A stretch of DNA of 64,000 bases from Chloroflexota bacterium (GTDB taxonomy: Bacteria > Chloroflexota > Anaerolineae > CG2-30-64-16): NCBI GenBank assembly GCA_026389845.1, contig JAPLHB010000187.1:1-64000 (forward strand), in the 5' to 3' direction. A program made the translations under genes and the position numbers. Positions 1,218 through 24,065 of the stretch are shown here, piece after piece. Numbering within the stretch: position 1 is the first letter of the stretch; every line of letters begins with the position of its first letter. A model generated the notes under the pieces. The model worked only from the letters and a program-made list of their open reading frames with translations, made no database searches and had not been told where the DNA came from.

Positions 1218-3107
1218 TCAGGGTTTCAAGGAAGAGGCCGTCCCAGAAGATGAATCTGGAAAGAAGCCTAGGAGTGTCTCAAACAATCTCAGTCGTTGCT
1301 CTCGAGTGAGTCTTCTCTTGTGAGTGCGACTTTCGACTTCGGATACCTTGGAAGTCAACTCCCCTGGTGATAATGATGATTTATCAAAGAAGTATACGGC
1401 ATCGAAATCCCGGATGGCCTTATTGACTCCCTCCACTGAAGGATAACCTGTCACCACTATGATCGGAACGCCTTTGCCCACCGCGATTCGCGCTAAATCC
1501 CACCCCCTGAACTGGCCGTTCAGCTTGACATCAAGCAGGAGAACCAAGGGACTATATTCACCTAGCTTGTTCAATGCCTCATCGTAGGTCCCTGCTTGAT
1601 CACACCAGTATCCGGCCTCCGTCAGCGTGGTAACCAAGTACTGCCTATACCATACATGGTCTTCGACTATCAGCACGGGCTTCGATGATGATACGGGGAG
1701 AATATCTTCCCAGTTGATGTCTGGACGCAGTTGCTTACCAACTTCTATCAGTTCACGAATGCGGTCACGACGATCCAGATAGCTGATTAGTTCTCTCGCC
1801 TTGTTCGCTTTTCCACTATCGGGTAAGTCATCGTAGTCTACGTTCAAGCCAAAGCACAGGGTACGCAACTCTCCGTCATTGAAGCGAGTCACCAGTACTT
1901 GCAGTAGTGTCATCCGATGTGTCTGACTCGTGCTCCGTAGAGATGTTCCCGCTGCTGCGACACGCAGCACTGGAGCTTCCCGAACTTCGGATGCGGCTTT
2001 TCTCTCACCTGTCGTGTGATCTTGCTCGACTGTTGCAGTGAGTTGCTCCAAGAACTCCAGCACATCTCCACACGAGGTCTGCTCGATTTCCCTCGTGATT
2101 CTGTCAGGCAGATCCCGGGCACCAGCAAGCTCGCGCTCATCGAGAAGCATCTTGATGCCAGTGCAGCCCAAAGCGATAGCCAATTCTGGCGGGTACTGGT
2201 TGATATCGAAGTCCCATCTTTGAGCTTCTTCAATGTGCTCTTCGAACAGTGGCCTGAGGAAGTCGGTGTAGCGAACGGTGCCGATAGCTTTCGCCGGCAC
2301 TGCGACATACACTATGCACTCCAGGATGGGGTTTCCCCCCTTATTGACCTTGGCTATGAATGGCGCCTGCACGAAGTAGTGCTTAATCCAATGCCCTAGA
2401 GACACGGGATCCCTGAGAAGGGCCGCGGCGTTTTTCCTGAAGACCGTTGCCGGCGCCCGATTCTTGTAGAAATCCATTGCGTCAACCAGCCGAAGGAGCG
2501 CGGCCAATAGCCCCACGCGGATTTCCTCAGCGTTGTACTGCACGGTTTCATAACATCGGCACCGGCGTTCTTTCAGATTGGCCCTGCCATGTCCTCGACA
2601 GATCGCCATCAAGTAGGGCTTGTCGTCTTCTGTCACACCAGCAATCGGTGTCACATCCCGATACAACCAGTAGGCGCTGAGAAGGTTATGCGTCTCCCGA
2701 ATTTGTCCCCCAGTGTCTCGGCCAAAAAGCTGATAGTTCTCTATTGCGTCGCACCGTGCCTCCGGACAGAGCGGTAGAGACATCTTCGGATCAGGCAGGA
2801 TCGTCTCCTCGAAGGTCGCCCCATCAAAAAACATGCCGAGGTCATGCAGATAGGCCGCCGCAGCCAGGAGAAAAGCCTCATAGTGGCCCAGCTTGAGGCC
2901 AAACCCTGTTCGCAGGCGACCAAGGAGAAGGATGAGGTTATCAGAGTGCTGCTCATTATGCAACGTAAAGTCAGGCAGCAAGGGGGTACCCATACTAGCG
3001 ATCTCCGCAAGCGATGCCCTAACCCTCCGAATATCGTCAACCCTATCTACACCAAGTTGCCTCAGGCATTTTTCGATCTCGACGGGCACATTCTCTCGAT
3101 CTGGCAT
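1218..3107 (-). CDS. HD phosphohydrolase - effector-associated domain - receiver protein
   Basis: A 629-residue protein with three parts. Residues about 30-330 are an HD-type metal phosphohydrolase: H50 and H54 in FTLHNEQHSDN, the H88-D89 pair in AYLHDLGMF, H173 in CRGHGRA and D209 in LVDAMD are candidate metal ligands. Residues about 398-466 (LLQVLVTRFNDGELRTLC ... VDYDDLP ... ARELISYLDRR) match the short helical effector-associated domain type (EAD7-like) that recruits effectors in bacterial conflict systems. Residues 476-590 are a receiver with E481-D482, phospho-acceptor D526 and K576. The ATG at 3107 was chosen because GAGGAGG precedes it; an upstream TTG at 3143 has no such site. It is the last gene of the sensor-kinase operon and looks like its phosphorylation-controlled output. 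The substrate of the HD domain is unknown. Confidence 0.8.
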   Translation of the reverse strand: MPDRENVPVEIEKCLRQLGVDRVDDIRRVRASLAEIASMGTPLLPDFTLHNEQHSDNLILLLGRLRTGFGLKLGHYEAFLLAAAAYLHDLGMFFDGATFEETILPDPKMSLPLCPEARCDAIENYQLFGRDTGGQIRETHNLLSAYWLYRDVTPIAGVTEDDKPYLMAICRGHGRANLKERRCRCYETVQYNAEEIRVGLLAALLRLVDAMDFYKNRAPATVFRKNAAALLRDPVSLGHWIKHYFVQAPFIAKVNKGGNPILECIVYVAVPAKAIGTVRYTDFLRPLFEEHIEEAQRWDFDINQYPPELAIALGCTGIKMLLDERELAGARDLPDRITREIEQTSCGDVLEFLEQLTATVEQDHTTGERKAASEVREAPVLRVAAAGTSLRSTSQTHRMTLLQVLVTRFNDGELRTLCFGLNVDYDDLPDSGKANKARELISYLDRRDRIRELIEVGKQLRPDINWEDILPVSSSKPVLIVEDHVWYRQYLVTTLTEAGYWCDQAGTYDEALNKLGEYSPLVLLLDVKLNGQFRGWDLARIAVGKGVPIIVVTGYPSVEGVNKAIRDFDAVYFFDKSSLSPGELTSKVSEVESRTHKRRLTREQRLRLFETLLGFFPDSSSGTASSLKP

Positions 3108-3160
3108 CTGCCTCCTCGTGTTTGGAGCCTCGGGCCGGCGCAATTGCTCACCAATACATC

Positions 3161-3583
3161 TCAGCTCTCATAGTGCAATGGTGTCTGGATTACCTCAGCC
3201 ACCTCTCGCTTGAGTTCGGCAGGATCATACTTGTCCTTGGGAATAACATCCCACACGTCATAGTCGCGGAAAGCTCTTCGCGTGCGTTCTTCTTGATGAG
3301 TAAAACCGCTCAGAATGATGACTCGATTGCCTGGCAGGATTCCCGCTGCCTGCAATGCATCAATCAGTCGGAATCCTTGCTCGTCTTCACCTGTATCTTT
3401 GACTAGATCGAGGTCGGCGATTACCAGATCGAACTCCATCTCCTGAAACAACTTCACAGCTTGTTGCAGAGACGTAGCTGAATAGACTTGATGCTCATCA
3501 GAGAGGGCAAGTTGGACTTCCCTAAGCCACTCTGCCTTATTTTCCAAGTGGAGTATCTGAGCGCGTTTGACCGGCTTCATCAT
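3161..3583 (-). CDS. Stand-alone response-regulator receiver
   Basis: A 140-residue single receiver domain. D57 in FDLVIADLDL is the expected phospho-acceptor and K116/K118 in VIPKDKY the expected lysine. The acidic pair at the first strand is changed to E14-N15 (LHLENKAEW), so Mg2+ binding may be altered. There is no output domain. AAAGGAGG precedes the ATG. It lies 11 bases after the previous receiver gene and about 53 bases before the HD-receiver gene, so all three are probably cotranscribed. A likely role is phosphate shuttle or competitor between the GAF kinase and the receiver of the HD protein; this is inferred from position. Confidence 0.8.
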   Translation of the reverse strand: MMKPVKRAQILHLENKAEWLREVQLALSDEHQVYSATSLQQAVKLFQEMEFDLVIADLDLVKDTGEDEQGFRLIDALQAAGILPGNRVIILSGFTHQEERTRRAFRDYDVWDVIPKDKYDPAELKREVAEVIQTPLHYES

Positions 3584-3594
3584 CTGCCTCCTTT

Positions 3595-4080
3595 CTAGTT
3601 GTGGATTGCCTCGATGTCAAGAATCCTCTCGAGGTCGAGCAAACTCATTTGCGATGTTTTCCGTGAACGCATAAACTTCTTTGCCCCGCTTAGCCTCTTG
3701 GCGAGGAGAAGTTCATCGTGAACCAGTGTTAGCAATCCCTTACTCTCGTATGGCTTATCAGCACAATCAAGGACTCCTGCCTTGAAAAACATGCGCAGCG
3801 TCTCATCCTCCTGAAAAACCGGAAACATAACTACAAATCGCCATCCATCAAGAGGAATTCTGGTGAGTTGGGCGATGGCCGGTAGATTACTGGCAGCCAC
3901 GTCCAGCCCAATAAAGATGAGGTCAAATTCCTTGGATTGTCCTTCTCGCATACAACATTCGTTCGCTTCCTCGAAACTTCTCGCGGTGATCACCTCGTAC
4001 TGCTCCCTCAGTACCTCCGAAGCAAACCGAAGCCATTCAGGATGTCGGTCAACCAACAGAATCCGTCCTTCGGTGTCCAT
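3595..4080 (-). CDS. Receiver-like protein lacking the phospho-acceptor aspartate
   Basis: A 161-residue protein whose first 125 residues follow the receiver fold: ILLVDRHPEW, EFDLIFIGLD, and the conserved lysine K109 in CADKPYES. The position normally holding the phosphorylated Asp is G58, so this is probably a pseudo-receiver that works by protein contact. The C-terminal 45 residues are basic and helical (KRLSGAKKFMRSRK) and could bind a partner. The start at 4080 has a near-perfect AAGGAGGTGAT ribosome site. A longer frame reaching upstream to 4242 overlaps the kinase gene and is not needed. It sits 19 bases after the kinase stop. Confidence 0.75.
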   Translation of the reverse strand: MDTEGRILLVDRHPEWLRFASEVLREQYEVITARSFEEANECCMREGQSKEFDLIFIGLDVAASNLPAIAQLTRIPLDGWRFVVMFPVFQEDETLRMFFKAGVLDCADKPYESKGLLTLVHDELLLAKRLSGAKKFMRSRKTSQMSLLDLERILDIEAIHN

Positions 4081-4099
4081 ATCATCACCTCCTTTCCTG

Positions 4100-6286
4100 C
4101 TAAACTGGCAAACGCATGAGAAAGGTGGTTTGGTGGGCATTACTCTCAAGTACGTACACATCCCCACCGTGCAATCGCAGAGCGGTGCGCGCCCCCCACA
4201 ATCCCAGGCCGTAGCTTTGTGGCTCGCTCTGGCCCTGTGCATCAGCTGAGAAGAGCCTAAAAATCCCTTCCCACCGTTCTCGAGCGATCGCGGGCCCGTG
4301 ATTTGTGAACGCCAATTCGATCATGCTACCCTGTACGCAAGTACCACTGACCTCTACCTGTCCGCGTTCAAGCCCTTCTTTCTTCAGACGCCTACGTGTG
4401 AACTTGATAGCATTATCTAGTATTTCCACGATGTAGCTTTGGATCTTCTGGGCCTGAACCTGAACTCTTGGCAGGTCTGGTGCAAGGTTCACTTGAATGC
4501 CGATATCCGGTTGTGCACCTATGACGCTCAGCGCCTCTGCCAAGATAAGTGCTATGCTGACTTCAGCCTTGGGTTCGGGGTTGTAAGGTTTGAAAAGATC
4601 ATCGGCCGCTTCCATGATGCCTTGCGCATTCTGAAGAATGATGTTCAAATCCTCTACCTGTTGAGTTGTCAGACCAGATAATTGAGTGCTCAACCGCTTA
4701 TCACACGTCCGTATGATACCTGCCAGATTCTTCACGTGGTGTGCTACTTCTGCCGTAACCATTCCAACACCAGCGCTTACCTCCGCGGCCAACCTCCGTG
4801 CCTCAAGTTCTTCCGCCTCTATCTTCTGCTGGATGAGGACAGCGGCTTGATCGGCGATGCGTTCGAGAAGCCCTCTGCTGTACGGCTTGAAAGCATCGGC
4901 GACTGGGGACTCGACGTTTAGCACACCGATGAGCCTGCCATCACCGGGTTGATCTCTGCCTATTATCATTGGAACAGCAATCTCAGAGCGTGTGCCCTCG
5001 ATGTATACCAGGTAATCATCTGCCTGCTCTATGTTGGACGCATAGGCCGTTTGTTTGTCCCGAGCAGCTCTGCCGGTGATGCCCTTGGACAACGGAATAC
5101 GCTCATATTCGTGCGATTTTTGTGCGAGCTTTCCTGCCCTAGCCCGGATTATAAGCTCATTCGTCGCCTTGTCCAACAACTGGATGGTTCCATCCCGAGC
5201 GCCAACTTCCCCCAATGTCAAGTTGAGAATTGACTGCAAGTAGTCTGGCAGCTTAGCGTGTACTTCAACCGCTCTTACTACCTCTTGAACGGTCTCCAGT
5301 TGCCTCTTTGCGTCGTACAGCAAGCCAGCCATGTTGATAGCAGTAGCTGCTTGGTCGGCAAAGATACGGATGGCACGTTTATCGCTATCGGTAAAGCGGT
5401 GTGGCTCGCGAACGTAGTTGATGAACAGAATACCTACTGGCTCCTTGCCATACTTTAGGGGGATAGCAGCGGAAGACTTCACACCTCGATTGCGGATGAA
5501 CGAACTATCTTTTAGCAGCGGATGTACGAACGAGTCCTCGGCTATGACCAGTTCTCCTCCCTCAATGACTCTAGCCGCGATGCCATCCTTACTTGGCAAT
5601 GGCTGCGACTTCGCTCCCACCAGTATTGGCAAGTAGAACTCGTTTGTAGCTCGATCATATAGATAAACGGTTGCCAGATCTGCCTCAAGAACCTCTGCGG
5701 CTTTTTCGGTCACTCGAGACAGCAGTTGCTCCAGATCACTTTCAGATGTCAAGGCCATCCCAACTGCCTGCAGACCTTCAAGTTCCTCTATCCTTTCCTG
5801 CAAATCGTCGAAGAGCCTGGTGTTATCCAGGGCGATGGCCGCCTGGTTTGCCATAGCCTGCAGTATCTCCCGGTCATCGCGATTGTAGACGTAGTCTCGT
5901 GTCAGGTGATAGGTGGCTATTACACCTAGCACCTTGTCTCCTACCATCATCGGCACACCAAGCCATGAGGCAAATGGCCGCCCCACATATTCCTCATGCC
6001 CTGGCAAACCATACCAGGCCTCGGATTCCGCCTTTGTGGCACTGAAGAGCGGTTGTTTGCTACGAATGATCTCCTCCGTTCGTCCTTTGCCCGCCTTACG
6101 GGGCTGCCACCCTTCTGTCGTTGTTACGTCTATACGGTTGCCGTCCACAAAGGCCAATGGAAACCGAACCGTGTCTGTCGCTTCATCGTACAAAGCGATG
6201 TACATGTTATCGGTATCCATCAATTTGCTGGCTTGGCGGTGGATCAGCGCCAAAATTCCACCCTCATGCAGGCGAATGTTGGTCAT
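4100..6286 (-). CDS. GAF-GAF-GAF sensor histidine kinase
   Basis: A 728-residue soluble kinase. Three GAF domains occupy roughly residues 10-165, 180-335 and 345-505. They are followed by a phospho-acceptor helix with AEVAHHVKNLAGII near residue 525. The ATPase domain fills the last 130 residues: N-box EILDNAIKF, G1-like FTNHGPAI and G2 YGLGLWGA. There is no transmembrane segment, so it should sense a cytoplasmic signal. The ATG at 6286 has GGAGG seven bases upstream; the longer frame lacks one. The first GAF domain is closely similar to the last GAF of the upstream gene, suggesting a duplication and split. Its natural partners are the two receivers just downstream and the receiver in the HD protein. 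Confidence 0.85.
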   Translation of the reverse strand: MTNIRLHEGGILALIHRQASKLMDTDNMYIALYDEATDTVRFPLAFVDGNRIDVTTTEGWQPRKAGKGRTEEIIRSKQPLFSATKAESEAWYGLPGHEEYVGRPFASWLGVPMMVGDKVLGVIATYHLTRDYVYNRDDREILQAMANQAAIALDNTRLFDDLQERIEELEGLQAVGMALTSESDLEQLLSRVTEKAAEVLEADLATVYLYDRATNEFYLPILVGAKSQPLPSKDGIAARVIEGGELVIAEDSFVHPLLKDSSFIRNRGVKSSAAIPLKYGKEPVGILFINYVREPHRFTDSDKRAIRIFADQAATAINMAGLLYDAKRQLETVQEVVRAVEVHAKLPDYLQSILNLTLGEVGARDGTIQLLDKATNELIIRARAGKLAQKSHEYERIPLSKGITGRAARDKQTAYASNIEQADDYLVYIEGTRSEIAVPMIIGRDQPGDGRLIGVLNVESPVADAFKPYSRGLLERIADQAAVLIQQKIEAEELEARRLAAEVSAGVGMVTAEVAHHVKNLAGIIRTCDKRLSTQLSGLTTQQVEDLNIILQNAQGIMEAADDLFKPYNPEPKAEVSIALILAEALSVIGAQPDIGIQVNLAPDLPRVQVQAQKIQSYIVEILDNAIKFTRRRLKKEGLERGQVEVSGTCVQGSMIELAFTNHGPAIARERWEGIFRLFSADAQGQSEPQSYGLGLWGARTALRLHGGDVYVLESNAHQTTFLMRLPV

Positions 6287-6308
6287 AGGTTTTCCTCCAC
6301 ATGATTTG

Positions 6309-9300
6309 CTAGCCCACCCTGTCCTCGCGCAGGCGAATGCTGGAAGTGACCGCCTGTCCAAACTCAACAAGGGCCTCCAGCCTACGGTTAACATCGTAGA
6401 ACATATACGCGTTGTCTAGCGCAATTGCTGCCTGATTGGCCATCGCCTGCAAGATCGCCAGATCATCGCCACTGTATACGTAGTCCCGCGCTGGGTGATA
6501 CGTAGCAATTACCCCCAGCACCTTCTCGCCCACCATCATCGGGACACCGAGCCAGGAAGCCCAAATGGGGCCGCCAGTATACTCCTCATGCTCTGGCGAG
6601 GCATACCAGGTCTCTGATTCCGCTTTCGTGGCAGTGAAGATCGGTTGCTTGGTACGAATGATCTCCTCCGTCCGGCCCTTGCCCCCCGTGCGGGGCTGCC
6701 ACCCTTCTGTCGTTCTCACGTCTATGGGCTTGCCGTCCACAAAGGCCAGTCCGAAGCGGACGGTGTCTGTTGCTTCATCGTACAAAGCGATGTACATGTT
6801 GTTCGTGTCCATCAACTGGCTGGCTTGCTTATGAATCAGGTCCAGGACCTCGTCCTCATGCAGGCGGATACCAGACGTTAATGCACGCCCGAGTTCATCT
6901 ACGATATCCATTCGCTTCACCAAGCGAGCGTTTCGGATCGCAATCGCAGCCTGGCCAGCCATAGCTTCCAGCAATTGTTGGTGATCTGGCGAAAGCCCAT
7001 TGAGAACTGGACTCTCGACACTCAATGTGCCAATGGCTCTATCTTTGTAACGCAATGGCACTGTCAACTGCGATCGGGTATCTGCATACCACTCTTCGTA
7101 GTGTTCATCCTTTCCAACGTCACCACATAAGTAGGATTGCCCCGTAATGGCTACCCATCCATTGATGCTATGCTCGTCAAGAATAATAATAGGGAGATCA
7201 GAGGTAGGACGCACATCTCCTGCAAGCCCTCCAAATTCCAATCGGTTGCGGGCTCTATCTACCAGCCAGACTCCACCATATTTCGCTTCGGTCAACTCTA
7301 CGGCTTTCTCAGCGATGAGCCGCATTACGTCCTGCGGCTCATCATGCATTGCCGCGTAGATTTCTCGCAACGCGCCGATGTCATTCAGACGCTCGTCCAG
7401 CCTCCTTTGTATTCTGGCGAACAGGTCGGCGTTGTATAGCGCTATCGCTGCCTGGTCGGCAAGGACGACGGCGAGTTCCTCGCTGGCCCCATCGAATGCA
7501 TCAAGTCGCGTGCTCTCAGCATTCAACACCCCGACGAGTTCTTCACCAATCAGCATGGGCACATCGAGTTCGGATTGAGTTGCCGCCACGTGTTCGATAT
7601 AGCGGTTATCCTTCTTCACATCCCCCACGCGGACCGGTTCCCCTGTCTCTGCTGCTGTGCCAATCAAGCCCTTGCCAACAGGTACACTTAAATACCTCTC
7701 TTTCCCTATTGCATATTGGAACTCCAGTTGATTTGTGGCTTTGTTCAGCAGGCAAATGGATCCGATCTCACATCCCAGAAGCTCCAGGGAACGGGCCAGG
7801 ATTTTTTGCAACAGTTCGTCCTTGTCAAGAATGCGCGTGATGTCTCGCGCGATATCCTGAAGGGCTTTGCGTTGCTCAAGCAGCCGGGCGTTATGAATGG
7901 CAATCGCAGCCTGGCTGGCGAATAACTCAATCAACTCCTTGTGTGGTTGAGGGAAAGTCTGTGGAGTACGATAGTTCGCAAATAACACACCAACCACTTC
8001 GGTACCCACAATTAACGGCACAGCCGCCGTTGCTCTGATCTTCTCGCGAAGGACGAATCGCGCTGGAGGGGCATCCGGACGCACCACTGTAAACGGTTGG
8101 ATCAGGGTTGACTCTCGTTGGGATTCCGGAACATATTGAGGTTGCCTGCTTCTAACAATCGCGCACACAACGTCGTCCGGATAGATCTTGTCTTTGCGCA
8201 CCGACGTATCGTACCGCTCGCCTACCAGCACAGGGGGAAGAACGTACTTGTCTCGGCTCTGGATGTACTGATAGAGATCAACCAGGTCGGCGCCCAGAAC
8301 ACCCTGAGCGTTCTGGGCGATCCTCGTGAGGATGTCATCCAGGGTGCCAGGCGTACTGGGAAGCGAAACCAGAGTTGGTGCTATCTCATATAACTTTCTC
8401 AGCGCCTCTGCTCTTGCAGCAGCCTGTTGATATAACCTCGAATTGTCAATGGCGATCGCCGCCTGATGTGCAAACAGTCGAACGGTGTCCTTCTCTTCAT
8501 CGCTGAATTGATGCGGAGTCCGAAAGTCTACATAAAGGATCCCCAAAACCCTGTCAGCAATCTTGAGGGCAACGCCCATGAAGGACTTGATTCCCTCCCG
8601 TTCAATGAAGGGACTTGCCAGCATAGCGGGGTCTTCTTCCTCGATATTGGAAACGGCAACTTCTCCCTCCCGTCTTACATAAGCAGCCATTCCCTTCTCA
8701 GTCCGCGGCCTTTCCGAGAGTAGAAGGGGTTTACTCAGTCCATGTGCGGCCACGCTTTCTTTGTCGTAGAACTCCTCACGGTCAACATCATAGGGATAGA
8801 TGACCGCGCAATCGGCTCCTGTCACCTCACAGGCTCCTTTGGCGATCTCCCGCAACACAACCAATGGTTGTTCTGTGATCAAACGCGCGAAAGCATCGCC
8901 AATATCAAGCAGCCGGATGAGTGTATGCTGTCTCTTGTCTGCCTCAAGCGTCAACCCGATCTGTGCAGCATAGTCCGTCAATAGCTGTTTCTCCAGATCC
9001 GAAAAATCACGCACTACGAAAGTGTAGATGCTAAGGACGCCCGTGACGATATCGCGCGCCTTGATTGGTACACAGAGCGTGGATTTCCAGCCCATCTCAC
9101 GGCCCATATCCTTGTATTTCCAACGCGGCTCAGAAGGGATATCGCGCACGATCGTGACTTGCCCACTCCGAAATGCTTCCCCCGTGATGCTCTCTTCGCT
9201 TAAGAAGAGCGTCGCTTCACGAACGTAGCTAGAAGGCAATCCAACCGACGCCGCGATCCGCAGAGCCTGCTTTTCTTTGTCGAGGACCCACACGCTGGCC

Positions 9301-9392
9301 GGCAGGTTCATCGTCCGACTGACAGTTTCAACCAACGGTTGGAAAAAGCCACTCTGGTTTTTGTCGTCCAGTTGCTTCGGATGATCGTCCAT
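6309..9392 (-). CDS. Six-GAF-domain sensor protein without kinase domain
   Basis: A 1027-residue protein made of six consecutive GAF domains (about 15-150, 160-330, 345-515, 520-690, 695-860, 865-1020). Each ends with a variant of the helix DQAAIALDN, and a short linker helix precedes the next domain. No histidine-kinase, cyclase or DNA-binding domain is present. The frame ends at SSIRLREDRVG, which is where the equivalent repeat in the next gene continues with the same motif (NIRLHEGGILALIH). The two genes therefore look like one former long GAF-kinase divided by a stop. The start at 9392 has GAAGGTGA upstream. It probably acts as a ligand-sensing partner of the kinase encoded 22 bases downstream. 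No ligand is evident. Confidence 0.85.
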   Translation of the reverse strand: MDDHPKQLDDKNQSGFFQPLVETVSRTMNLPASVWVLDKEKQALRIAASVGLPSSYVREATLFLSEESITGEAFRSGQVTIVRDIPSEPRWKYKDMGREMGWKSTLCVPIKARDIVTGVLSIYTFVVRDFSDLEKQLLTDYAAQIGLTLEADKRQHTLIRLLDIGDAFARLITEQPLVVLREIAKGACEVTGADCAVIYPYDVDREEFYDKESVAAHGLSKPLLLSERPRTEKGMAAYVRREGEVAVSNIEEEDPAMLASPFIEREGIKSFMGVALKIADRVLGILYVDFRTPHQFSDEEKDTVRLFAHQAAIAIDNSRLYQQAAARAEALRKLYEIAPTLVSLPSTPGTLDDILTRIAQNAQGVLGADLVDLYQYIQSRDKYVLPPVLVGERYDTSVRKDKIYPDDVVCAIVRSRQPQYVPESQRESTLIQPFTVVRPDAPPARFVLREKIRATAAVPLIVGTEVVGVLFANYRTPQTFPQPHKELIELFASQAAIAIHNARLLEQRKALQDIARDITRILDKDELLQKILARSLELLGCEIGSICLLNKATNQLEFQYAIGKERYLSVPVGKGLIGTAAETGEPVRVGDVKKDNRYIEHVAATQSELDVPMLIGEELVGVLNAESTRLDAFDGASEELAVVLADQAAIALYNADLFARIQRRLDERLNDIGALREIYAAMHDEPQDVMRLIAEKAVELTEAKYGGVWLVDRARNRLEFGGLAGDVRPTSDLPIIILDEHSINGWVAITGQSYLCGDVGKDEHYEEWYADTRSQLTVPLRYKDRAIGTLSVESPVLNGLSPDHQQLLEAMAGQAAIAIRNARLVKRMDIVDELGRALTSGIRLHEDEVLDLIHKQASQLMDTNNMYIALYDEATDTVRFGLAFVDGKPIDVRTTEGWQPRTGGKGRTEEIIRTKQPIFTATKAESETWYASPEHEEYTGGPIWASWLGVPMMVGEKVLGVIATYHPARDYVYSGDDLAILQAMANQAAIALDNAYMFYDVNRRLEALVEFGQAVTSSIRLREDRVG

Positions 9393-9442
9393 ATCGTCAC
9401 CTTCTCCAGGCAAAGCTGTACTTGCCCAAGCGTCTATCCTTC

Positions 9443-10753
9443 TCAAGCCGACGCATACTGATAGGCTGGTTGCTCAAGCTCGATTCCTCTTTGCTGCAAT
9501 CTTGCTCGGGCGAGCGGCAACGGAACACCAAACCCCTTAACTAAGCTGATCAGTTGCTCCTCGCTTGGAGCCCATTCGCTGACCCAGGCAAGGCGATCCA
9601 GTTGCTGGTAACCTCTCTGCAGAGTCTTTGCGAAGCGCAACCGCTCATCGGCGAAGTAGTCGAGCAGAGTCTGCTTGCCACTGACCAGCCCAGGATGCTG
9701 TTCACCGTAGATGGCAATGATCGAATCAATCAATCCAGGCAGAAATGCGGGAGAGGCGATCTCCAGTATCTCCTGTTGTGTCAATACACCCCTAACGAGT
9801 AGCTTCACAATGCGTGACCGTCCACCTTTACCGGGAGGAGGCGCTCCATCAGCGACAAGGAAAAGCAAAGCTCTCACATAGTCACAGATGATTTCTTGAG
9901 ACCTCTCGGCCCAGCTATTAGAACCTACACCATTACAGAACTCTCTCACCTTGTCCAAGAGTGGCCTCATGCAATCAATCTCGAAAACCGAGGCCTTGCC
10001 TTGCGCGATCATAGCGACTCTTTCTGTACCAATCACAGTTTCATTAAAAGGTCTGTCCATCAATCGCAAAGTGCTGGTTTTCTCGTTCAGTTCAGCAAAG
10101 ATAAAAAGCGAGTTGGCAAATTCAACAAACCTGCCACAGCGACACCCTGGTCGGCAACTCGCACCACAACCAAAAGCTTCTCCACGGTCAAAAAACACTT
10201 CGGTATTAGGCCCGCACTTTCGAATGGATTCGCGACCGTCTATGCCACCACCTTGCAACCAGAAGTTGTCCTCCGGACCCAACGCCACAATTTGCTCTTC
10301 CGAAAGACCTATTTGCCTCCAGATTTGACAGGTCTCCATATCCGGTGGGAATTCATGATCTCCTTTGACGCCTCCATTAAAATACGTGATACTTAGACAG
10401 TTCGGTGCGATTTTTAGAACACCCGTGATCAAATGCCACATACGCTGTATAGTTTCTGCTTTGCTATTCCTTGCAAACGTAAAGGCGCCAGGCATTTCAA
10501 ACAGGCTTAAATGAACATTGCTACTGCCAATTCTGTCCAGATCGAAGTGTCTGAAGCACTTCTGTTGCAGTACATAAGAGCCATCCCCAACATCCCCCAA
10601 CTTGTCCAGAGCTGTCTCGACCTGGACGAGGCCAGCGCTCATAACAAAGGTCATCGGAATAGAAGGATCTAACAATGAAGCAGTCGGCAAAGGCCGATAC
10701 CCGATGCTCTGATAATAACTGGCGAATCTTGCACTGATGTCGAAGGAGTTCAT
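9443..10753 (-). CDS. Alanyl-tRNA-synthetase-like protein, catalytic core only
   Basis: A 436-residue homologue of the class II catalytic core of alanyl-tRNA synthetase. Visible are IGYRPLPTASLLDPSIP, the motif-2 region KCFRHFDLDRIG ... LFEMPGAFTF with R68, DNFW, the CRPGCRCGRFVEFANSLFIF block and motif 3 IGTERVAMIAQG. The editing domain and the C-terminal domain of the roughly 870-residue housekeeping enzyme are absent. A start at 10753 is preferred because GCGAGGG precedes it and the family N-terminus begins there; GTG 10786 and ATG 10777 are alternatives. It is the first gene of the GAF-kinase-HD operon, 50 bases before the six-GAF gene. It could aminoacylate something other than tRNA, or bind an amino acid or tRNA as a sensor. 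That it is not the housekeeping enzyme is inferred from length and context. Confidence 0.8.
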   Translation of the reverse strand: MNSFDISARFASYYQSIGYRPLPTASLLDPSIPMTFVMSAGLVQVETALDKLGDVGDGSYVLQQKCFRHFDLDRIGSSNVHLSLFEMPGAFTFARNSKAETIQRMWHLITGVLKIAPNCLSITYFNGGVKGDHEFPPDMETCQIWRQIGLSEEQIVALGPEDNFWLQGGGIDGRESIRKCGPNTEVFFDRGEAFGCGASCRPGCRCGRFVEFANSLFIFAELNEKTSTLRLMDRPFNETVIGTERVAMIAQGKASVFEIDCMRPLLDKVREFCNGVGSNSWAERSQEIICDYVRALLFLVADGAPPPGKGGRSRIVKLLVRGVLTQQEILEIASPAFLPGLIDSIIAIYGEQHPGLVSGKQTLLDYFADERLRFAKTLQRGYQQLDRLAWVSEWAPSEEQLISLVKGFGVPLPLARARLQQRGIELEQPAYQYASA

Positions 10754-11157
10754 CCAGTCCCTCGCTGCTATTTGCATGAAACTCACCGTGTTCCTGGAAA
10801 AACGACGCAGGCGTTCCGAAAGCCTTCATCGCTGGATCCGCAATGCAGATTTGCCAATTCGAGGCCGCGATTACCGGGTTGAGAAACCGTTGCACGTAGA
10901 TCAACCGAGAGAAAGGCACCACAGCAACACCAACACAAGGCCATAGCCATGGATTTCAAGAACTGGAGACATGGGAGAAGAAAGCCCACTACTCTGCTCG
11001 GCCAATCAAGCAGCAGATAGTGACGCCGAGGAAACAACAAGTACGGGAAGGCAGCAATCGTCATTGATACCTACTCCGATAGACCAAGAAGGCTCCGCTA
11101 CGATCGGCGTGCGAACAGATGTTCTATACCAAAATCTATTGCCATCTTGATTGCACA
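10754..11157 (-). other. Long untranslated leader of the sensor operon
   Basis: About 400 bases lie between the candidate promoter at 11158-11186 and the AlaRS-like start. Several frames of 90-130 codons cross it on the minus strand, but none has a ribosome site or recognisable protein. A frame through 10922-10760 reads somewhat protein-like and could be a remnant. No riboswitch or T-box could be identified by eye. Confidence 0.35.
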
Positions 11158-11328: not shown

Positions 11329-13710
11329 CTACCCCCTCTTCACCACCACCCCCGTCACGTCATCCCCCCACTCCCGCCCCCCGGCCCACCCCGTCACCGC
11401 CTCCACCACCGCGCGGAGCAGATCCTCCGCGCTCGCGCCGCCGTTCGCGGCGACCACGGCCCGCAGCCGCTCGTCGCCAAACGGCTCCCCCGCGGCGTTC
11501 TCCGCCTCCGTCACCCCGTCCGTGTAGGACACCAGCGCGTCGCCGTGCTCCAGGTTGAGGCGTTCTTCCTTCAACTGGATCTCTTCGAAAGCGCCCAGGA
11601 CGATGCCGCGGAGGGCCAGCTCGGTCACTGCGCCGGTCGCGGCGTGATACCAGAGCGGCCGGGTGTGCCCGGCGTTGGCGTAGATCAGGCGGCCGGTCTC
11701 CAGCTCCAACGCGGCATAGACCGCGCTGATGAAGGTGTCGGCGTGGCTGTCTTTCAGGATCAGCGTGTTGGAGCGCATCAGGGCCGACGCGGGGCCGCGG
11801 CCGGCCAACGCCACGGTGCGAATGATGGTGCGGCTGAGGGCCATGAACAGCGCCGCGCCCACGCCGTGATCGGCCACGTCCGCGATCACCAGACCCAGCC
11901 GCGCCGGCTTGCCCGGCAGGTCGTAGAAGTCGTAGAAGTCGCCGCCGACCGAGCGCGCGGGCTGGTAGTACGCGACGACCTGCCAGCCGGGCGCCTCGGG
12001 ACAGCATTTCGGCAACATGCTGAGCTGAATCTGCCGGCCGACCTCCAGCTCCTGCTCCAATCGCTGCCGGGCGACCTCCTCGCGGTGGAGCCGGGCGTTG
12101 TCAATCGCGACGGCTGCGTGCGCGGCAAACGCCTTGAGCAGCTCGGTCTCGGCAGGCCCGATGGGGTGCGTCGCCAAATCAGCAGCGCGGGCTGCCGCGT
12201 CCGCCACCGGCGGCGCGGGAGCCGCCTCGGCTGGCTTTCCGGATAGACCGTAGGTGTAGAGGTTGATCGTGCCGAACGCGCGGTCGCGGCTGATGAGCGG
12301 CACCGCGACCATGCTGTGCAGCCCCAGGCGGACGATGGGCGCGCCGGCCGCGCCGGGGAGGGCCGTCAGGTCAGGCTCAGTGCGCGGGACGCGGGTCATC
12401 ACCGCCTGACCCGTGATGCTGTCCATGCCCAGTCGTTGGCCGCGGTAGACGGGATCAGCCAGGCTGCTCTGGAGGACGGTCAGGCTGGCCTGGTCGGGAT
12501 GGTATTCCCAGATCGTCATCTCGGCGCCGGGGAAGAGAGCCTGCACGTCGGTCAGGATGCGCGCCAGCACCGCATCCAGGTCGAGGGTCGAGCTGACCGC
12601 CAGGCTGCTGGAGCGCAGCTTTTCCAGCTCGTCGACGCGGCGGGCCAGCGCCTCGTCGGTGCGCCGGAGCAACTGCATGTTGTACACGGCGATGGCGACC
12701 TGGTCGCTGAACGCCGCCAGACTGCGTTTGTGCTCCTCGGTCAGCTTGAGCCTGGAGGCTTCGGCATAGCCAAGCTCCAGGGTGCCCAGCCCGGCGCCGG
12801 CCGCCTGCAACGGCAGAAAGACGCGCGCATATTTGTGCAGCGCAAAGCGATCCACCAGGGCCTTGTCCTGCGGATCGTCAATGCCGCGGGCGGCCGTCAG
12901 GCGTCTTTCCCGCAGGGCGACGACTGCCGGATGCCGGCCTGCCAGCGCGAAGCGCGCCACCGGCCGCCACTCCTCGCTCCACGGCCGGCCCACGCCCGCG
13001 GCCATCTCGATCATCGTGTCGCCTGCCAGGTAGAGCGCCGCGTAGTCGCAGCCGAGCGCCTGGGCCACCGCCTCCAGGACGCGGCCGAGGGTGGGCTGCA
13101 TCGTGCTGGCGCTCAACACCGCCTGGCCGATCGTCCGGTAGGCCGCGCGTACCATCACGTTCTCCATCGCGTTTGCGGCGTGCTGCAGGAAGTGGAGCAG
13201 ATCGAGCAGCCCGGCGGGCGATTCGTGCGGATCACGGCCGCGTGCGTAGCGTTCCACGCAGGCAATGCCGATGGGCCTTGCCTGTGCGGTGAGCGCCACG
13301 ACCAGCCGCGCCTCGTCGGCCGTGCCGCGCAGCGCGTAATTGCCGTAGCGGAAGGTCTGCGCCTCGACGCATTCGGGGTCGTAGAGGTCAACCGATACCG
13401 AAGCATCCTGAGCGGAGTCCCGTGTAGTTTGCGAGACGGAGTCGAAGGATGCCGAAGCGCCCGATGGCTGCTCCACAGGCTTCTTCGACTCCGCTGCGGC
13501 TCCGCTTTGCGAAGCATCCCTTTGGGACAGAATGCCTGCTCCGCTCGTGGTATTCGGGTAGGTCAACTCCAACCGCCCCTGCGCCGGGTTCGCCAGATAG
13601 ATGCGCACGTCGGCGTGGCCGAAGCCGAGCCGCAGCCCGCTCGCCACGATTTCGCACGCCTTTTCGAGCGAATCGGTCGCGTAGATAGACTGGACGATGG
13701 CTTCGAGCAA
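11329..13710 (-). CDS. Multi-GAF SpoIIE-type protein phosphatase (probable 3' part of a broken gene)
   Basis: A 793-codon frame with GAF-like domains (about residues 1-175, 190-345 and 365-550), a coiled linker (EVARQRLEQELEVGRQIQLSML) and a PP2C/SpoIIE phosphatase domain over the last 230 residues. The metal-site motifs GGDFYDFYDL and DVADHGVGAALFM, plus GHTRPLWY and WGDDVTGVV, are intact. The only start in frame is a weak TTG at 13710, inside sequence that reads as the continuation of the ATPase gene upstream in another frame. I infer that both were one ATPase-GAF-SpoIIE protein, divided by the heptamer array at 13734-13898. A second repeat (13402-13536) is translated in frame near residue 80. 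Anti-anti-sigma control is the usual role of such phosphatases. Confidence 0.75.
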   Translation of the reverse strand: MLEAIVQSIYATDSLEKACEIVASGLRLGFGHADVRIYLANPAQGRLELTYPNTTSGAGILSQRDASQSGAAAESKKPVEQPSGASASFDSVSQTTRDSAQDASVSVDLYDPECVEAQTFRYGNYALRGTADEARLVVALTAQARPIGIACVERYARGRDPHESPAGLLDLLHFLQHAANAMENVMVRAAYRTIGQAVLSASTMQPTLGRVLEAVAQALGCDYAALYLAGDTMIEMAAGVGRPWSEEWRPVARFALAGRHPAVVALRERRLTAARGIDDPQDKALVDRFALHKYARVFLPLQAAGAGLGTLELGYAEASRLKLTEEHKRSLAAFSDQVAIAVYNMQLLRRTDEALARRVDELEKLRSSSLAVSSTLDLDAVLARILTDVQALFPGAEMTIWEYHPDQASLTVLQSSLADPVYRGQRLGMDSITGQAVMTRVPRTEPDLTALPGAAGAPIVRLGLHSMVAVPLISRDRAFGTINLYTYGLSGKPAEAAPAPPVADAAARAADLATHPIGPAETELLKAFAAHAAVAIDNARLHREEVARQRLEQELEVGRQIQLSMLPKCCPEAPGWQVVAYYQPARSVGGDFYDFYDLPGKPARLGLVIADVADHGVGAALFMALSRTIIRTVALAGRGPASALMRSNTLILKDSHADTFISAVYAALELETGRLIYANAGHTRPLWYHAATGAVTELALRGIVLGAFEEIQLKEERLNLEHGDALVSYTDGVTEAENAAGEPFGDERLRAVVAANGGASAEDLLRAVVEAVTGWAGGREWGDDVTGVVVKRG
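13402..13536. repeat. Dispersed palindrome (family 2) inserted in frame in a coding region
   Basis: A 135-base element beginning AGCATCCTGAGCGGA and containing GTCGAAGGATGC arms. The copy at 25226-25346 has the same ends. Its length is 45 codons, so the phosphatase frame is kept and it adds a Ser/Ala/Gln-rich stretch between two GAF segments. Confidence 0.7.
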
Positions 13711-15035
13711 TTGCGGCCGCGCGCCGGTTGTGGGAGATTGGGTATCAGGTATTGGATATTGGGTATTGGATGGTGGAGGTGGGATGTTGGCAGTCGGGAG
13801 TTGGGAGCTGGAAACTGGCTGATCGCTGATAGCTGACGGCTGATTGCTGATAGCAGGCTCCGCACCCTGCGATTTGCGATTTGCGATTTGCTATCTGCTT
13901 CCAGCCGCGGCGCGAGATACTCGATCGCCTCATTCCAGCGGCCAGCGATGCGCAGGACGTGGGCCACGCGCTCGGTGGTGAAGTGGCGGGCCAGGGCGTG
14001 CCGGTAGGCCTGGTTTTTGAGGGAGTAGACGCCTTCCGCGAGCACGGCCGCGCCGGAAAGCTGCAGGCGGTCGGTGCCGGTGCGGGTGATCGCCTGGCGC
14101 GAGCGAGTGCGCGGCAGGCCGCCGTGATCGAGCAGGTGGAGCACGTCCAGCATCGTGTCCGGGTCCTCTTCGATCATACGAATCGCCTCGCGAATCGGCG
14201 GCAACTCCTGATCGGCCAGCCACAGGCAATCCGCGACGCGCTCCACGACCGTCTGGGTCACGACCGGGCGGCGATAACCCTGCGCCATCTCCGCGCTCCA
14301 TGCGCACAGCCGCGCCACCAGATAGCGGTCGCCGCCGGCCCAGGCGACGATTCGTTCTAACGCCTTCGGTGAAACGCCGTAGCCGTGCGCCTCGATTGTC
14401 GCCTGCGCCAGCGCGACTGTCTGTTCCGGGGTCAGCGGCAGGGCCACGACGGGTCTGGCGATATTGAAAGGCGACGTAGGCCCGGTCGAGAGGCCCACCA
14501 GGTTCATGCTGCCGGTGACCACAGCCACCAGTTGGGCCGGCGCGTCCGCGTCCCGCTCCATATACGCCGAGCGCAACGCCAGCAGCAGGCTGTGGATCAG
14601 GTCAGGGGGGAGCGCCTGCAGGTGATCCACCAGCAGCGCCAGGTGGCGATGGCTGACGTTGGCGCAGGCCAACAGAAAGTTCTGGAAGGCGCGCGGGGTG
14701 GGGACGCGCTCCAGCACCGCGATGCTCTCGTCGCCGAGCGTCTGGGCGATCTGCACGGCCAGGCTGGTGAAGAAGGTCGCATCGTCGTCCGAGCGGGTCT
14801 GCCAGAGGTCCACGTAGAGGGGCCGATAGCGGCCGGTGGCTGCCAGCACGTCCGCCACGTCGCGCAGCACCGCGGTCTTCTCGCTCAACGGCGGCCCCAG
14901 CAGGGCGACGCACTCGTGGGCCAGGAGATGCCGCGCCACGGTCTGGATGCGGGTGTCATCCCGCACCCGCACCTTCTTGAAAGGTGAGTCACCCTCGTAA
15001 GGAACGATTTGCCAACCGGGGGTACTACTGGTCAT
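13563..15035 (-). pseudogene. STAND/AAA-type ATPase module, 5' part of a disrupted ATPase-GAF-SpoIIE gene
   Basis: Codons 1-385 encode a P-loop ATPase. GPPLSEKTAVL is a degenerate P-loop, HLALLVDHLQALPPD a Walker-B-like strand, and a helical/winged C-terminal region ends at WNEAIEYLAPRLEA. Beyond about 13900 the frame reads through a heptamer array (QLSAISRQLSAIS, HPIPNIQYLIPN). It then translates the phosphatase gene out of frame, ending in an Arg/Ser-rich tail typical of wrong-frame reading. An intact protein would be about 1250 residues with the ATPase regulating the phosphatase. The start follows GTGAGGC at 15035; an adjacent ATG is at 15038. If a sequencing error lies in the array, the gene could be intact. 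Confidence 0.7.
13734..13898. repeat. Heptameric tandem array (drifting 7-bp units)
   Basis: From 13734 the sequence divides into 7-base units such as GGTATTG, GATATTG, GGTATTG, GGAGTTG, GGAGCTG, five GCTGATN units (13818-13852) and three GATTTGC units (13871-13891). An 18-base interruption sits at 13853-13870. Each unit differs slightly from the last. The array separates the ATPase and phosphatase frames, which are out of register. Confidence 0.85.
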
Positions 15036-15072
15036 CATGCCTCACCCATACGCCCAAGAATCGCACAGGCTG

Positions 15073-15204
15073 TCACTCTGAGCGGGTCGGTCCCGTGAAT
15101 TGCGTCGCGGCGTGATACCAGCGAAGAGTCCTGCGACAAGGGGGAGATTCTTCGCTGGGGTCTCGCCGTCGCGAGAGTTCAGGGGTAGACCCGCTCAGAA
15201 TGAC
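15073..15204. repeat. MITE-like palindrome, family 1 copy a
   Basis: Imperfect 132-base palindrome: TCACTCTGAGCGGGTC at the left, CAGCGAAGA and CTTCGCTGG around the centre, and CCCGCTCAGAATGACA at the right. It fills the gap between two ATPase genes and ends four bases from the stop codon of the second. Confidence 0.85.
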
Positions 15205-15208
15205 AGGT

Positions 15209-16750
15209 CTACCAAATTCCTTCCTGCTGGATCTTCTTGAACAAATAATCCAGATCATAATTCTCCCGCAGCATCCGCGGGAACATCGGCGTGGTAAAGC
15301 GATAGAGCGGCCCGCGGGCAGTGAAGGTGCCCGCCAGCTCCAGGTTCCGGCAGGCGTGACTCAGATCCGAAAGGGGGAACTGGATGCCCCGCTTCTCCAG
15401 GACTTCGTCAATCGCCTGGACGCTGAAGGGGTGGTCGGATTCGTGATCGGTCATCACCGCAAACACCATGGCTTTTTCGAGGTTCGTGGTGTTGTCCATG
15501 AAGGTGCTCAGGACGAACGCGCGAAAATCCTCACTGCCGTAGACGTCGAACAGGCTCTCCGGGGAGACGATGCGCGAACCCTGGCGATCCAGCCGCTCCA
15601 CCAGGATGCTGCAATAAAACTGGATCAGGTTCGGCTGCCCCGCGGTCTCGTCGAAGATGCGGTTGATCACTTCGTTGCCCCGCTCGAAGCGAACGCCGAG
15701 CTTCTCCAGCGGGCCGATCACCATCGCGGCGGTCTGTTCGCGGCTGAACTCCTTCAGGCGCACCGGTCGAGCGAAGTTGTAGAGCGGCGAGTCCAGGTCA
15801 CTGAACGCGGCCATCACCTCGCGGAAACCACCGACAACGTAGCGCGAATGTCCCACGTTGGAAGAAGCGCGCAGCGCGTTGAGCAGAGTGTCGTCCTCGT
15901 GGTGCCAGGTCAGCACCTTGTCGAACTCGTCCAGGAAGAAGATCAGCGGGCCGCCGTAACGCTGCGACATGCGATCGAGAAAGTCCGGGAAGAAGATCGG
16001 GAACTGTTTGGACGACAGACGGGGCAGCTCCTGTGGACGCAATTTGCGCACGACCTCCTGGACGAAGCATGCGGGTGACGTGATGGCGCTGCAATCCATG
16101 AAGATGAGGCGTTGGGCCGCGCAGTCGTCGCCGCCTTCCTGAGCCTGTTCCTTGAGCTGGCGCTCGATTTCACGCATCAGCGAAGTCTTGCCGATGCGCC
16201 GGATGCCCATGATGGCAAAGTTGCTGTCGCTGCCTTGCAAGATGCGCCGGATCTCGAACTCGCGGCCGAAGAAGCGCGAGCCGGTCACCGGTTTGCTGGT
16301 CTCGTAGGGCGCCAGCAGCGAAAGATCGAGCTGCGCGCTCAGCCGCTCCAACAGTTCGGCCGTGGGCCGCCGCGATTCGCGGACCGCCTGCTGCGCCGTG
16401 CCGTCGAAGACGATCACGGGGATAAAAGCCGTCTTGAGGTGCGCCCGCAGCTCGTCGCCCGGGCCCTGGATCAGCACGATGGAGTTGCGCTCGGCCAGGC
16501 TGCGCGTCCGCACCACGTCGGCCAGGCTTTGCGCCAGCTCCCGCGGACGCAACGTCGCCAGATCCCCTTCGCCGACCGCGATGACCGGCGTGCGGTCGGT
16601 GAAGCGCAGCTTCCATGAGGAGAGATCCACGAAGTAGAGGTGGAAACCGAGCACCTCTTCGTGAAGCCGAACCGGGTAGTTGAGGTCACATTCCAGGTAT
16701 TGCAGGAAATCGGGCATCTCCTGTCGCCAGGAGGGTTTCGCAGGGTTCAT
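15209..16750 (-). CDS. AAA/ORC-like ATPase with winged-helix C-terminus
   Basis: A 513-residue protein. The N-terminal 160 residues are a receptor-like region of unknown function. A P-loop ATPase then begins at RFFGREFEIRRIL, with Walker A GIRRIGKTSLM, Walker B LIFFLDEFDKVL and a sensor segment YVVGGFREVMAAF. The last 150 residues contain helical repeats and a winged-helix-like end (HACRNLELAGTFTARG). FGRExEI-type ATPases of this kind occur in prokaryotic signalling and conflict systems as regulatory switches. The start at 16750 has AGGAG ten bases upstream. Repeats flank the gene on both sides. It shares orientation and ATPase type with the neighbouring ATPase-phosphatase, so a joint role is possible but unproven. 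Confidence 0.7.
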   Translation of the reverse strand: MNPAKPSWRQEMPDFLQYLECDLNYPVRLHEEVLGFHLYFVDLSSWKLRFTDRTPVIAVGEGDLATLRPRELAQSLADVVRTRSLAERNSIVLIQGPGDELRAHLKTAFIPVIVFDGTAQQAVRESRRPTAELLERLSAQLDLSLLAPYETSKPVTGSRFFGREFEIRRILQGSDSNFAIMGIRRIGKTSLMREIERQLKEQAQEGGDDCAAQRLIFMDCSAITSPACFVQEVVRKLRPQELPRLSSKQFPIFFPDFLDRMSQRYGGPLIFFLDEFDKVLTWHHEDDTLLNALRASSNVGHSRYVVGGFREVMAAFSDLDSPLYNFARPVRLKEFSREQTAAMVIGPLEKLGVRFERGNEVINRIFDETAGQPNLIQFYCSILVERLDRQGSRIVSPESLFDVYGSEDFRAFVLSTFMDNTTNLEKAMVFAVMTDHESDHPFSVQAIDEVLEKRGIQFPLSDLSHACRNLELAGTFTARGPLYRFTTPMFPRMLRENYDLDYLFKKIQQEGIW

Positions 16751-16782
16751 AATGAACGCGCTCCTGTCGTCATCACACGTCG

Positions 16783-16910
16783 TCATTCTGAGCGGGTCTA
16801 CCCCTAACATCTCGCGACGGCGAAAAATCAGCGAAGAATCTCTCTGCCACAGACCCTTCGCTGGTGTCGCGCTGCACGCAATTCACGAGACCGATCCGCT
16901 CAGGGTGACA
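16783..16910. repeat. MITE-like palindrome, family 1 copy b
   Basis: A 128-base copy of the shared core: TCATTCTGAGCGGGTC ... CAGCGAAGAATCTC ... CTTCGCTGG ... CCGCTCAGGGTGACA. It separates the ATPase and aminopeptidase genes and may act as a bidirectional hairpin. Confidence 0.85.
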
Positions 16911-18505: not shown

Positions 18506-18748
18506 GCTATTGCGCCAGATTCGTTGTTGCAAGCCATCGCTTCGAGCACCGGCAGCCCGAACCCCTCGTACTCGCTCGCGAACACCGTGCCCAACGCCAT
18601 CGAGTAGAGCGCCGGCTTGTCCGTCTCATCCACCCAGCCGGTGAAGTGTACGCGCTCCTCGACGCCCAACGCAGCGGCAACCCGCCTGGGGTCAGGGGCA
18701 AAGGCGGTGTCGGCTTCAGGCAGCTTGCCGGCAATGACCAGCTTGAGG

Positions 18749-18832
18749 CAGGAATCAGGAGTCAGGAGACAGGGGTCAGGAGTCAGTGGTTGGTCGTCCG
18801 TGGCGATTTGCGATTTGCGATTTGCGATTTGC
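18749..18832. repeat. Heptameric array inside a glycosyltransferase gene
   Basis: Twelve 7-base units: six CAGGAGT-like (18749-18790), two intermediate, and four perfect GATTTGC (18805-18832). The total of 84 bases equals 28 codons, so the reading frame survives. Confidence 0.9.
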
Positions 18833-19347
18833 CGCTGAGCCAGCTTCGCAAACGCCTCAACCATCCGCCCCAGGTTCTTCCGCGCATCAAACCCGCCCAC
18901 GTACAGCAAAAACGGCCCCTCCGGCAGCCGATACCTCGCGGCCACACGTGCCAGCTCGGCCGGATCGGTCACCGGCCGATAACGGGAGTTCGCGGCCAGG
19001 GGAATGGCATAGACGCGTTCGGGTGAGATGCGCAGACGTTGCACGATGTCCCGCTTGCTGGCCTCCGAATCGGTCAGCACGGCCGCCGCGCGGCGGGCGG
19101 TCAGGCTCACCAGGGCCGTGTAGCCGCGCTGGAGCGGGCCGCCGCGGTAAAGAGGCAGGAGCAAGGGGATCAAATCGTGGATAGTGACGACGACCGGGCA
19201 CGGCGACCACGCCGCCGCGCCCCAATAGGGCACAAACGCCACGTCGGCCCGCAGCCGCCGGCATGCGCGGGGAAAGGCGATCTGCTCGAACCATAGTTTG
19301 GCGAGATTGGCGTTAAGACCGTCGAAGGGGGTGCGGACGTTGCTATG

Positions 19348-19452
19348 GCGTATTGCGTATTGCGTACTGCGTATTGCGTGCTCTGTGCTGGCGTCTGCGA
19401 TTTGCTGTTTGCTGTTTGCTGTTTGCGTTTTGCGTTTTGCGTTTTGCGATTC
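19348..19452. repeat. Heptameric array inside a glycosyltransferase gene
   Basis: Fifteen consecutive 7-base units: GCGTATT, GCGTATT, GCGTACT, GCGTATT, GCGTGCT, CTGTGCT, GGCGTCT, GCGATTT, three GCTGTTT, three GCGTTTT and GCGATTC. The total of 105 bases is 35 codons, in frame with the host gene. An 8-base CCCCTGCT repeat follows. Confidence 0.92.
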
Positions 19453-23977: not shown

Positions 23978-24047
23978 ACGCAACACGCAACACGCAACAC
24001 GCAACACGCAACACGCAACACGCAACACGCAACACGCAACACGCAAC
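23978..24047. repeat. Ten perfect ACGCAAC heptamers
   Basis: Ten identical 7-base units (70 bases) directly before the site-2 protease gene, in its probable leader. Perfect identity suggests recent expansion or contraction. The frame reading through it (RNTQHATRNTQHA) is not part of the protein. Confidence 0.95.
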
Positions 24048-24065
24048 ACGTCCCAGAGGTGTCTA

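Follow-up and report, generated by a model that had tools for sequence, protein, structure and literature searches.

The gene at 9443–10753 (−) of the window, the whole stretch of 64,000 nucleotides analysed here, encodes a 436-residue protein derived from the catalytic core of alanyl-tRNA synthetase (AlaRS). We propose, with a probability of about 0.6, that this AlaRS-like protein serves as input enzyme to a two-component cassette which has spread by horizontal transfer and has suicide or defence effectors under its control. Its membership of a kinase/REC/effector system, in which its gene comes first, is well supported, and the protein is likely to be the input or control component of the cassette; its substrate, chemistry and defence role are what we infer. 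An earlier reading made from the letters alone (the sequence-only reading) had suggested a use in signalling rather than translation. That suggestion is now strongly supported by linkage to a GAF kinase in 15/15 loci, a rebuilt amino-acid pocket, the loss of tRNA-reading residues and the coexistence of a true AlaRS. The amino-acid sensing and acyl transfer to a protein that it named are candidate uses, and it covered neither the suicide or immune type of the output effectors nor the change in the pocket.

The enclosing open reading frame spans 9443–10786 (−). Alignment with relatives sets the start at its Met12 (10753), exactly where the sequence-only reading had placed it, and the upstream GTG at 10786 finds no support among those relatives. 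The sole Pfam domain is tRNA-synt_2c (PF01411), which scores 194.6 bits (cut-off 30.3) and matches profile positions 2–420 of 552; the Pfam scan finds neither the editing domain (tRNA_SAD) nor DHHA1/C-Ala. With the motif IGTERVAMIAQG present at residues 241–252, this bears out the earlier description of a retained core, motif 3 included, that has shed its editing and C-terminal domains. The alignment to TIGR00344 covers just positions 2–416 of 847 and, at 194 bits, falls short of the 457-bit equivalog cut-off that identifies a housekeeping AlaRS. An AlphaFold2 model built from 14 aligned relatives (pLDDT 86.0, pTM 0.87) retains the fold together with the helical tRNA-recognition domain, and the top solved structures in Foldseek are all AlaRS catalytic fragments (1riq, 9jdn, 9jc7 and 3hxu; TM ~0.79, E ~1e-30), with a class II core in common at ~25–27% identity. 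A separate full-length AlaRS of 927 residues is encoded in the same genome (G000:C57), and the AlaRS-like gene is thus a paralogue.

That this is a family well beyond chance is confirmed by 16 carriers, a single clade and shared neighbours. The carriers belong to Chloroflexota, Cyanobacteria and Methylococcaceae and are a lower bound, since the scan of GTDB contigs relied on two peptide patterns. It recovered members at 40–51% identity in Chloroflexota, in cyanobacteria (Spirulina SIO3F2, Phormidium OSCR and a Leptolyngbyaceae) and in one Methylococcaceae metagenome-assembled genome (MAG). One hit of the pattern scan, L056 (27% identity, 906 residues), proved to be an ordinary full-length AlaRS and was set aside. 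Carriage is sparse: the gene occurs in 1 of 298 genomes of the class, in 1 of 400 sampled Chloroflexota genomes (E<=1e-80), in 3 of 291 sampled cyanobacterial genomes, a sample that added two carriers whose genomes each consist of one contig, and in 1 of 249 genomes sampled from the phylum of the Methylococcaceae carrier. Most carriers are MAGs, and the window's genome has an estimated contamination of 8%. Of the 14 carrier genomes checked, 13 encode a further AlaRS away from the cassette, in some cases as fragments; the exception (G660) is a MAG. In a phylogeny against 23 housekeeping AlaRS, of the kind that the sequence-only reading had called for, the family stands apart as its own clade (100/100 support) on a long branch. 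The order within this clade mixes phyla, which points to horizontal transfer. No relative was found among viral contigs.

In AlaRS structures, ATP is contacted by an Arg (E. coli R69) and a Phe (F90) of motif 2 and by an Arg of motif 3 (R242), alanine is contacted by Asp235, and Val214 and Leu229 (Val204 and Leu219 in DH-1) shape the pocket (PMC12143591); the E. coli numbering of F90, R242, V214 and L229 was carried over by alignment. The ATP residues R69, F90 and R242 are conserved in all 14 aligned members of the family, as is Asn212. In the window's protein the motif 2 Arg, whose partner is the alpha-phosphate of ATP, is Arg68 (10550–10552 (−)), and Arg245 of motif 3 (adenine stacking) is likewise retained. 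The nucleotide site that the family shares with AlaRS, comprising the motif 2 Arg, the motif 3 Arg and the adenine-stacking Phe, is therefore still in place. Of the two findings that would have told against the sequence-only reading, a genome lacking any other alaS and a loss of ATP-binding residues, neither applies here.

The amino-acid pocket differs from that of AlaRS. Motif 3, ETVIGTERVAMIAQG (9998–10042 (−)), carries Glu238 in place of the pocket Asp235 and Val240 in place of Gly237, and the family alignment shows D235E, V214L and G237V in 14/14 members, whereas D235, V214 and G237 are unchanged in 23/23 housekeeping AlaRS. The position of Leu229 is occupied by Met, Ile or Leu. All three invariant substitutions are bulkier, so that the rebuilt pocket is probably smaller and probably not meant for alanine; “AlaRS” thus denotes the ancestry of the family and not its specificity. 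Crystallographers have mutated Gly237 as well (PDB titles 3hxz, 3hy1). Further invariants beside the active site are Arg-Lys for Gly176-Pro177 and Gln for Met172, and a C-x3-C-x3-C-x-C cluster at residues 196–206 (10136–10168 (−)), found in all 13 rows examined, is a possible metal site. Catalytic activity of the AlaRS-like protein, for which the conserved ATP residues are not in themselves proof, is somewhat more probable than its absence.

The nearest functional precedent, compared by description only, is AcmF of ascamycin biosynthesis, a truncated AlaRS comprising the aminoacylation and tRNA-recognition domains only, in which the same Asp-to-Glu change yields an essential Glu232 (PMC12945691). 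Truncation, a non-translational role and the Glu found in 14/14 family members would all fit a similar transferase, one modifying a small molecule with the help of aminoacyl-tRNA. However, AcmF has lost most ATP-binding residues and has an N-to-Q change (PMC12945691), whereas this family keeps both its ATP residues and the Asn in 14/14 members; AcmF resides in a natural-product cluster, whereas the AlaRS-like gene precedes a kinase and has no biosynthetic genes nearby. We consider such a transferase very improbable. In plasmid and phage collections every match had less than 30% identity; where annotated, these matches are named alanine--tRNA ligase or alanyl-tRNA synthetase. Both Streptomyces plasmid copies examined are full-length alaS, and AcmF itself was thus not recovered.

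A retained ATP site would also suit an enzyme that transfers an acyl- or aminoacyl-adenylate directly to a lysine of the kinase, a REC domain or another protein, in the manner of AARS1 with lactate. AlaRS from bacteria to man has been reported as a lactyltransferase (PMC12143591), and the tight operon coupling would suit a dedicated partner. Against this, V214L, G237V and the frequent L229M resemble or exceed L219M, with which AlaRS reportedly no longer activates serine or lactate (PMC12143591), and no acceptor site is apparent. We judge direct modification improbable; that a product is sensed by GAF domains, rather than a partner being modified, is a suggestion that we make tentatively.

The tRNA-facing side of the protein has changed too. 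The Asn and Asp with which AlaRS recognises the G3:U70 pair of tRNA(Ala) are gone, replaced by Lys in 12/13 and 11/13 members, respectively. The motif 2 loop carrying K73, which contacts the tRNA 3′ end and is dispensable for activation (PMC6209979), is deleted, but it is also absent from 6 of the 23 housekeeping AlaRS, and for that reason we down-weight its loss as an argument against tRNA charging. Nor does the loss of the readers alone prove that charging is lost, as the Tupanvirus mini-AlaRS, a 461-residue enzyme that lacks the editing and C-Ala domains and the N/D readers, still alanylates tRNA(Ala) and is able to rescue yeast (PMC10036535). This enzyme matches the AlaRS-like protein in domain content and size, and AcmD provides a precedent for a resistant second AlaRS (PMC12945691); a spare or inhibitor-resistant mini-AlaRS for translation could therefore be entertained. 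Yet the viral enzyme has retained AlaRS activity, with no signalling role reported, whereas the pocket positions D235, V214 and G237 of this family depart from 23/23 housekeeping AlaRS, and a fixed operon linkage to kinase and effectors would make no sense for a resistance enzyme. On the pocket residues and the linkage we reject a plain translation enzyme, and a spare or resistant one has a very slim chance of being correct.

Measured against the core, divergence of the tRNA-recognition domain is faster than in housekeeping AlaRS (ratio ~0.66 vs 0.88, for pairs at 50–60% core identity), and the domain is slightly more basic (+2.4 vs −3.9). The eukaryotic kinase GCN2 is a precedent for coupling a synthetase-like fold to a kinase, and tRNA cleavage is a common trigger in defence. 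By analogy with GCN2, whose HisRS-like domain is likewise a synthetase-derived module tied to a kinase, a non-catalytic AlaRS relic might bind uncharged or cleaved tRNA, or an amino acid, and report translation status to the kinase. The retained fold and helical domain of the AlphaFold2 model and the slightly more basic charge of that domain would be in keeping with such a sensor. The lost G3:U70 readers and the fast evolution of the tRNA domain argue against it, as does, more weakly, the deleted K73 loop; the catalytic residues, moreover, have been retained under purifying selection, unlike those of a pseudo-enzyme. The cassette also differs from GCN2 in having another synthetase, another class of kinase, separate polypeptides and kept catalytic residues. 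We regard this sensor as unlikely, while giving it more weight than direct modification.

The context of the gene also supports an input enzyme. As the sequence-only reading had noted, it precedes sensor genes; these lie on the same strand. Next to it lies a protein with six GAF domains (6309–9446 (−)), the N-terminal part of the kinase array, followed by a protein with three GAF domains and a histidine kinase (4100–6394 (−); H-box AHHVKN, HATPase_c), a weakly matching receiver (REC) protein (3595–4242 (−); PF00072 at 22.2 bits, under the 30.2 cut-off), a stand-alone REC protein (3161–3583 (−); PF00072 at 36.5 bits) and a predicted effector of 641 residues (1218–3143 (−)) that combines HD-CE (PF24391), EAD7 (PF19960) and REC (PF00072) and contains an HD motif. 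The kinase array, a single ORF in the relatives L044, L046, L048 and L054, is here divided between two ORFs that overlap at 6309–6394. This division could be genuine, a scar left by recombination or an artefact of assembly, and the window's copy of the cassette might therefore be damaged. The split falls between near-identical tandem GAF units.

In 15/15 loci with enough flank, spanning three phyla, the next same-strand gene encodes a multi-GAF protein, with two to eight GAF domains detected. HATPase_c ends all eleven complete kinases scanned, and the kinase C-termini retain the H-box His and G-boxes (AHHVKN in the window; LQHRINN, LAHRIGN, LVHRLNS and similar elsewhere); kinases of this kind share the operon with REC partners, as befits a two-component system. 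GAF kinases are abundant in Chloroflexota and multi-GAF kinases are common in carrier genomes, and one might suppose that the AlaRS-like gene is a hitch-hiker in a generic two-component operon. Order and strand are the same in all 15 loci while other neighbours vary, however, which leaves a chance association scarcely credible.

Downstream of the kinase lie small REC proteins and REC–effector fusions, and it is here that the cassettes differ. The effectors include TIR (L048), four CHAT proteins (L039/L045, L044, L046 and L054), Peptidase_C14 caspases (L050, L051 and L089, with near-identical architecture in L090), SLFN_AlbA_2 (Schlafen) proteins (L039 and L044) and TCAD9/APH-like kinases (L046 and L054), with a weak HD match at L047. 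Catalytic motifs are intact in CHAT (HYAGHG/SSC) and caspase (SGHG/DCCHAGG). Interchangeable TIR, CHAT and caspase-type effectors on a constant core are the pattern of a conflict system. The divergent Methylococcaceae locus has its REC as part of the kinase and yielded no recognisable effector. In six carriers the Chloroflexota kinase subtype reaches 342–377 bits at the AlaRS-like loci only; generic kinases of the carrier genomes stay at ~120 bits or less. One extra copy (224 bits) belongs to an EAD7-nSTAND1-kinase fusion (L137 3427–5733, G663:C67), indicating that an immune-type STAND sensor drives this output module too. This search of the carriers used a profile; a preceding one with the L044-type output domain, run without a positive control, gave none in 199 genomes of the class at E<=1e-35. 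In PADLOC, the AlaRS-like protein and the kinase had no match and the effectors only weak or generic ones, and the broader neighbourhoods of carriers are not consistently defence islands. The window's genome encodes 12 EAD7 domains and is thus rich in effector-associated-domain systems.

For the preferred reading, that of an input enzyme, we propose the following sequence of events. The AlaRS-like protein would bind ATP together with a small carboxylate that is not alanine, and would form an adenylate-type intermediate or product, or else hold that state as a ligand sensor. The GAF array would read this state or product, the kinase would phosphorylate REC domains and thereby switch on the effectors, and the active effectors would send the stressed or infected cell into dormancy or kill it. 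It is possible, if doubtful, that this amounts to an undescribed class of immunity or programmed death: a small adenylate-based signal, whether produced or withheld by an AlaRS-derived enzyme, would be read by a multi-GAF kinase, which would release TIR, CHAT, caspase, Schlafen or HD effectors from control by REC. If the proposal is correct, a synthetase-derived enzyme joins the input side of bacterial suicide and immune signalling, and a histidine-kinase phosphorelay is seen to drive TIR, CHAT and caspase effectors. The compact four-gene cassette, which occurs in closed chromosomes of cyanobacteria, offers a direct test bed for what a retired synthetase senses or makes.

The effector and EAD vocabulary is described in surveys (Kaur et al., 2020, 2021) of the EAD/STAND/VMAP conflict systems, which share with the cassette interchangeable caspase, CHAT and TIR effectors, EAD7 and TCAD domains and a sporadic distribution. 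They differ in that the AlaRS-like cassette has a kinase–REC relay as its core, whereas histidine kinases are reported to be absent among the vWA-associated effectors (Kaur et al., 2020). A text search of these papers for tRNA synthetase returned a reference title only (2020) and nothing (2021), and no AlaRS-like component. In the open-licence literature we found no published description of the cassette; an earlier account in a subscription journal is possible. In one review an “alas” domain is tabulated among those of cyanobacterial orthocaspases (PMC7475262), but the table gives no details, and equating that domain with this family is unsupported.

Among three related cyanobacterial genomes, the AlaRS-like gene is under purifying selection (dN/dS 0.10–0.14), with values of 0.13–0.17 for the kinase, 0.12–0.23 for REC and 0.31–0.44 for the REC-caspase effector. 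Over the first 170 alignment columns the REC-caspase proteins are 30–53% identical, while the AlaRS-like proteins of the same genomes are 89–98% identical. We infer an arms-race pattern, in which a constant input protein is paired with a fast-changing effector. At L089, L090 and L091 the receiver-like N-terminal part of the REC-caspase is far more variable than the caspase domain or the remaining operon.

Upstream of the AlaRS-like gene, a gap of ~540 bp separates it from a GAF-SpoIIE gene. The same-strand region at 11329–13710 and 13563–16810 contains this gene, which encodes a GAF-SpoIIE phosphatase, together with two ATPase-like ORFs, of which 15209–16810 matches AAA_22/nSTAND1 and 13563–15038 has no Pfam match; neither the GAF-SpoIIE gene nor the ATPase-like ORFs are conserved beside the AlaRS-like gene in relatives. 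Elsewhere in the window, at 23978–24050, the heptamer ACGCAAC is repeated perfectly in tandem (x10.4), and several more 7-bp arrays occur, including at 18745–19448.
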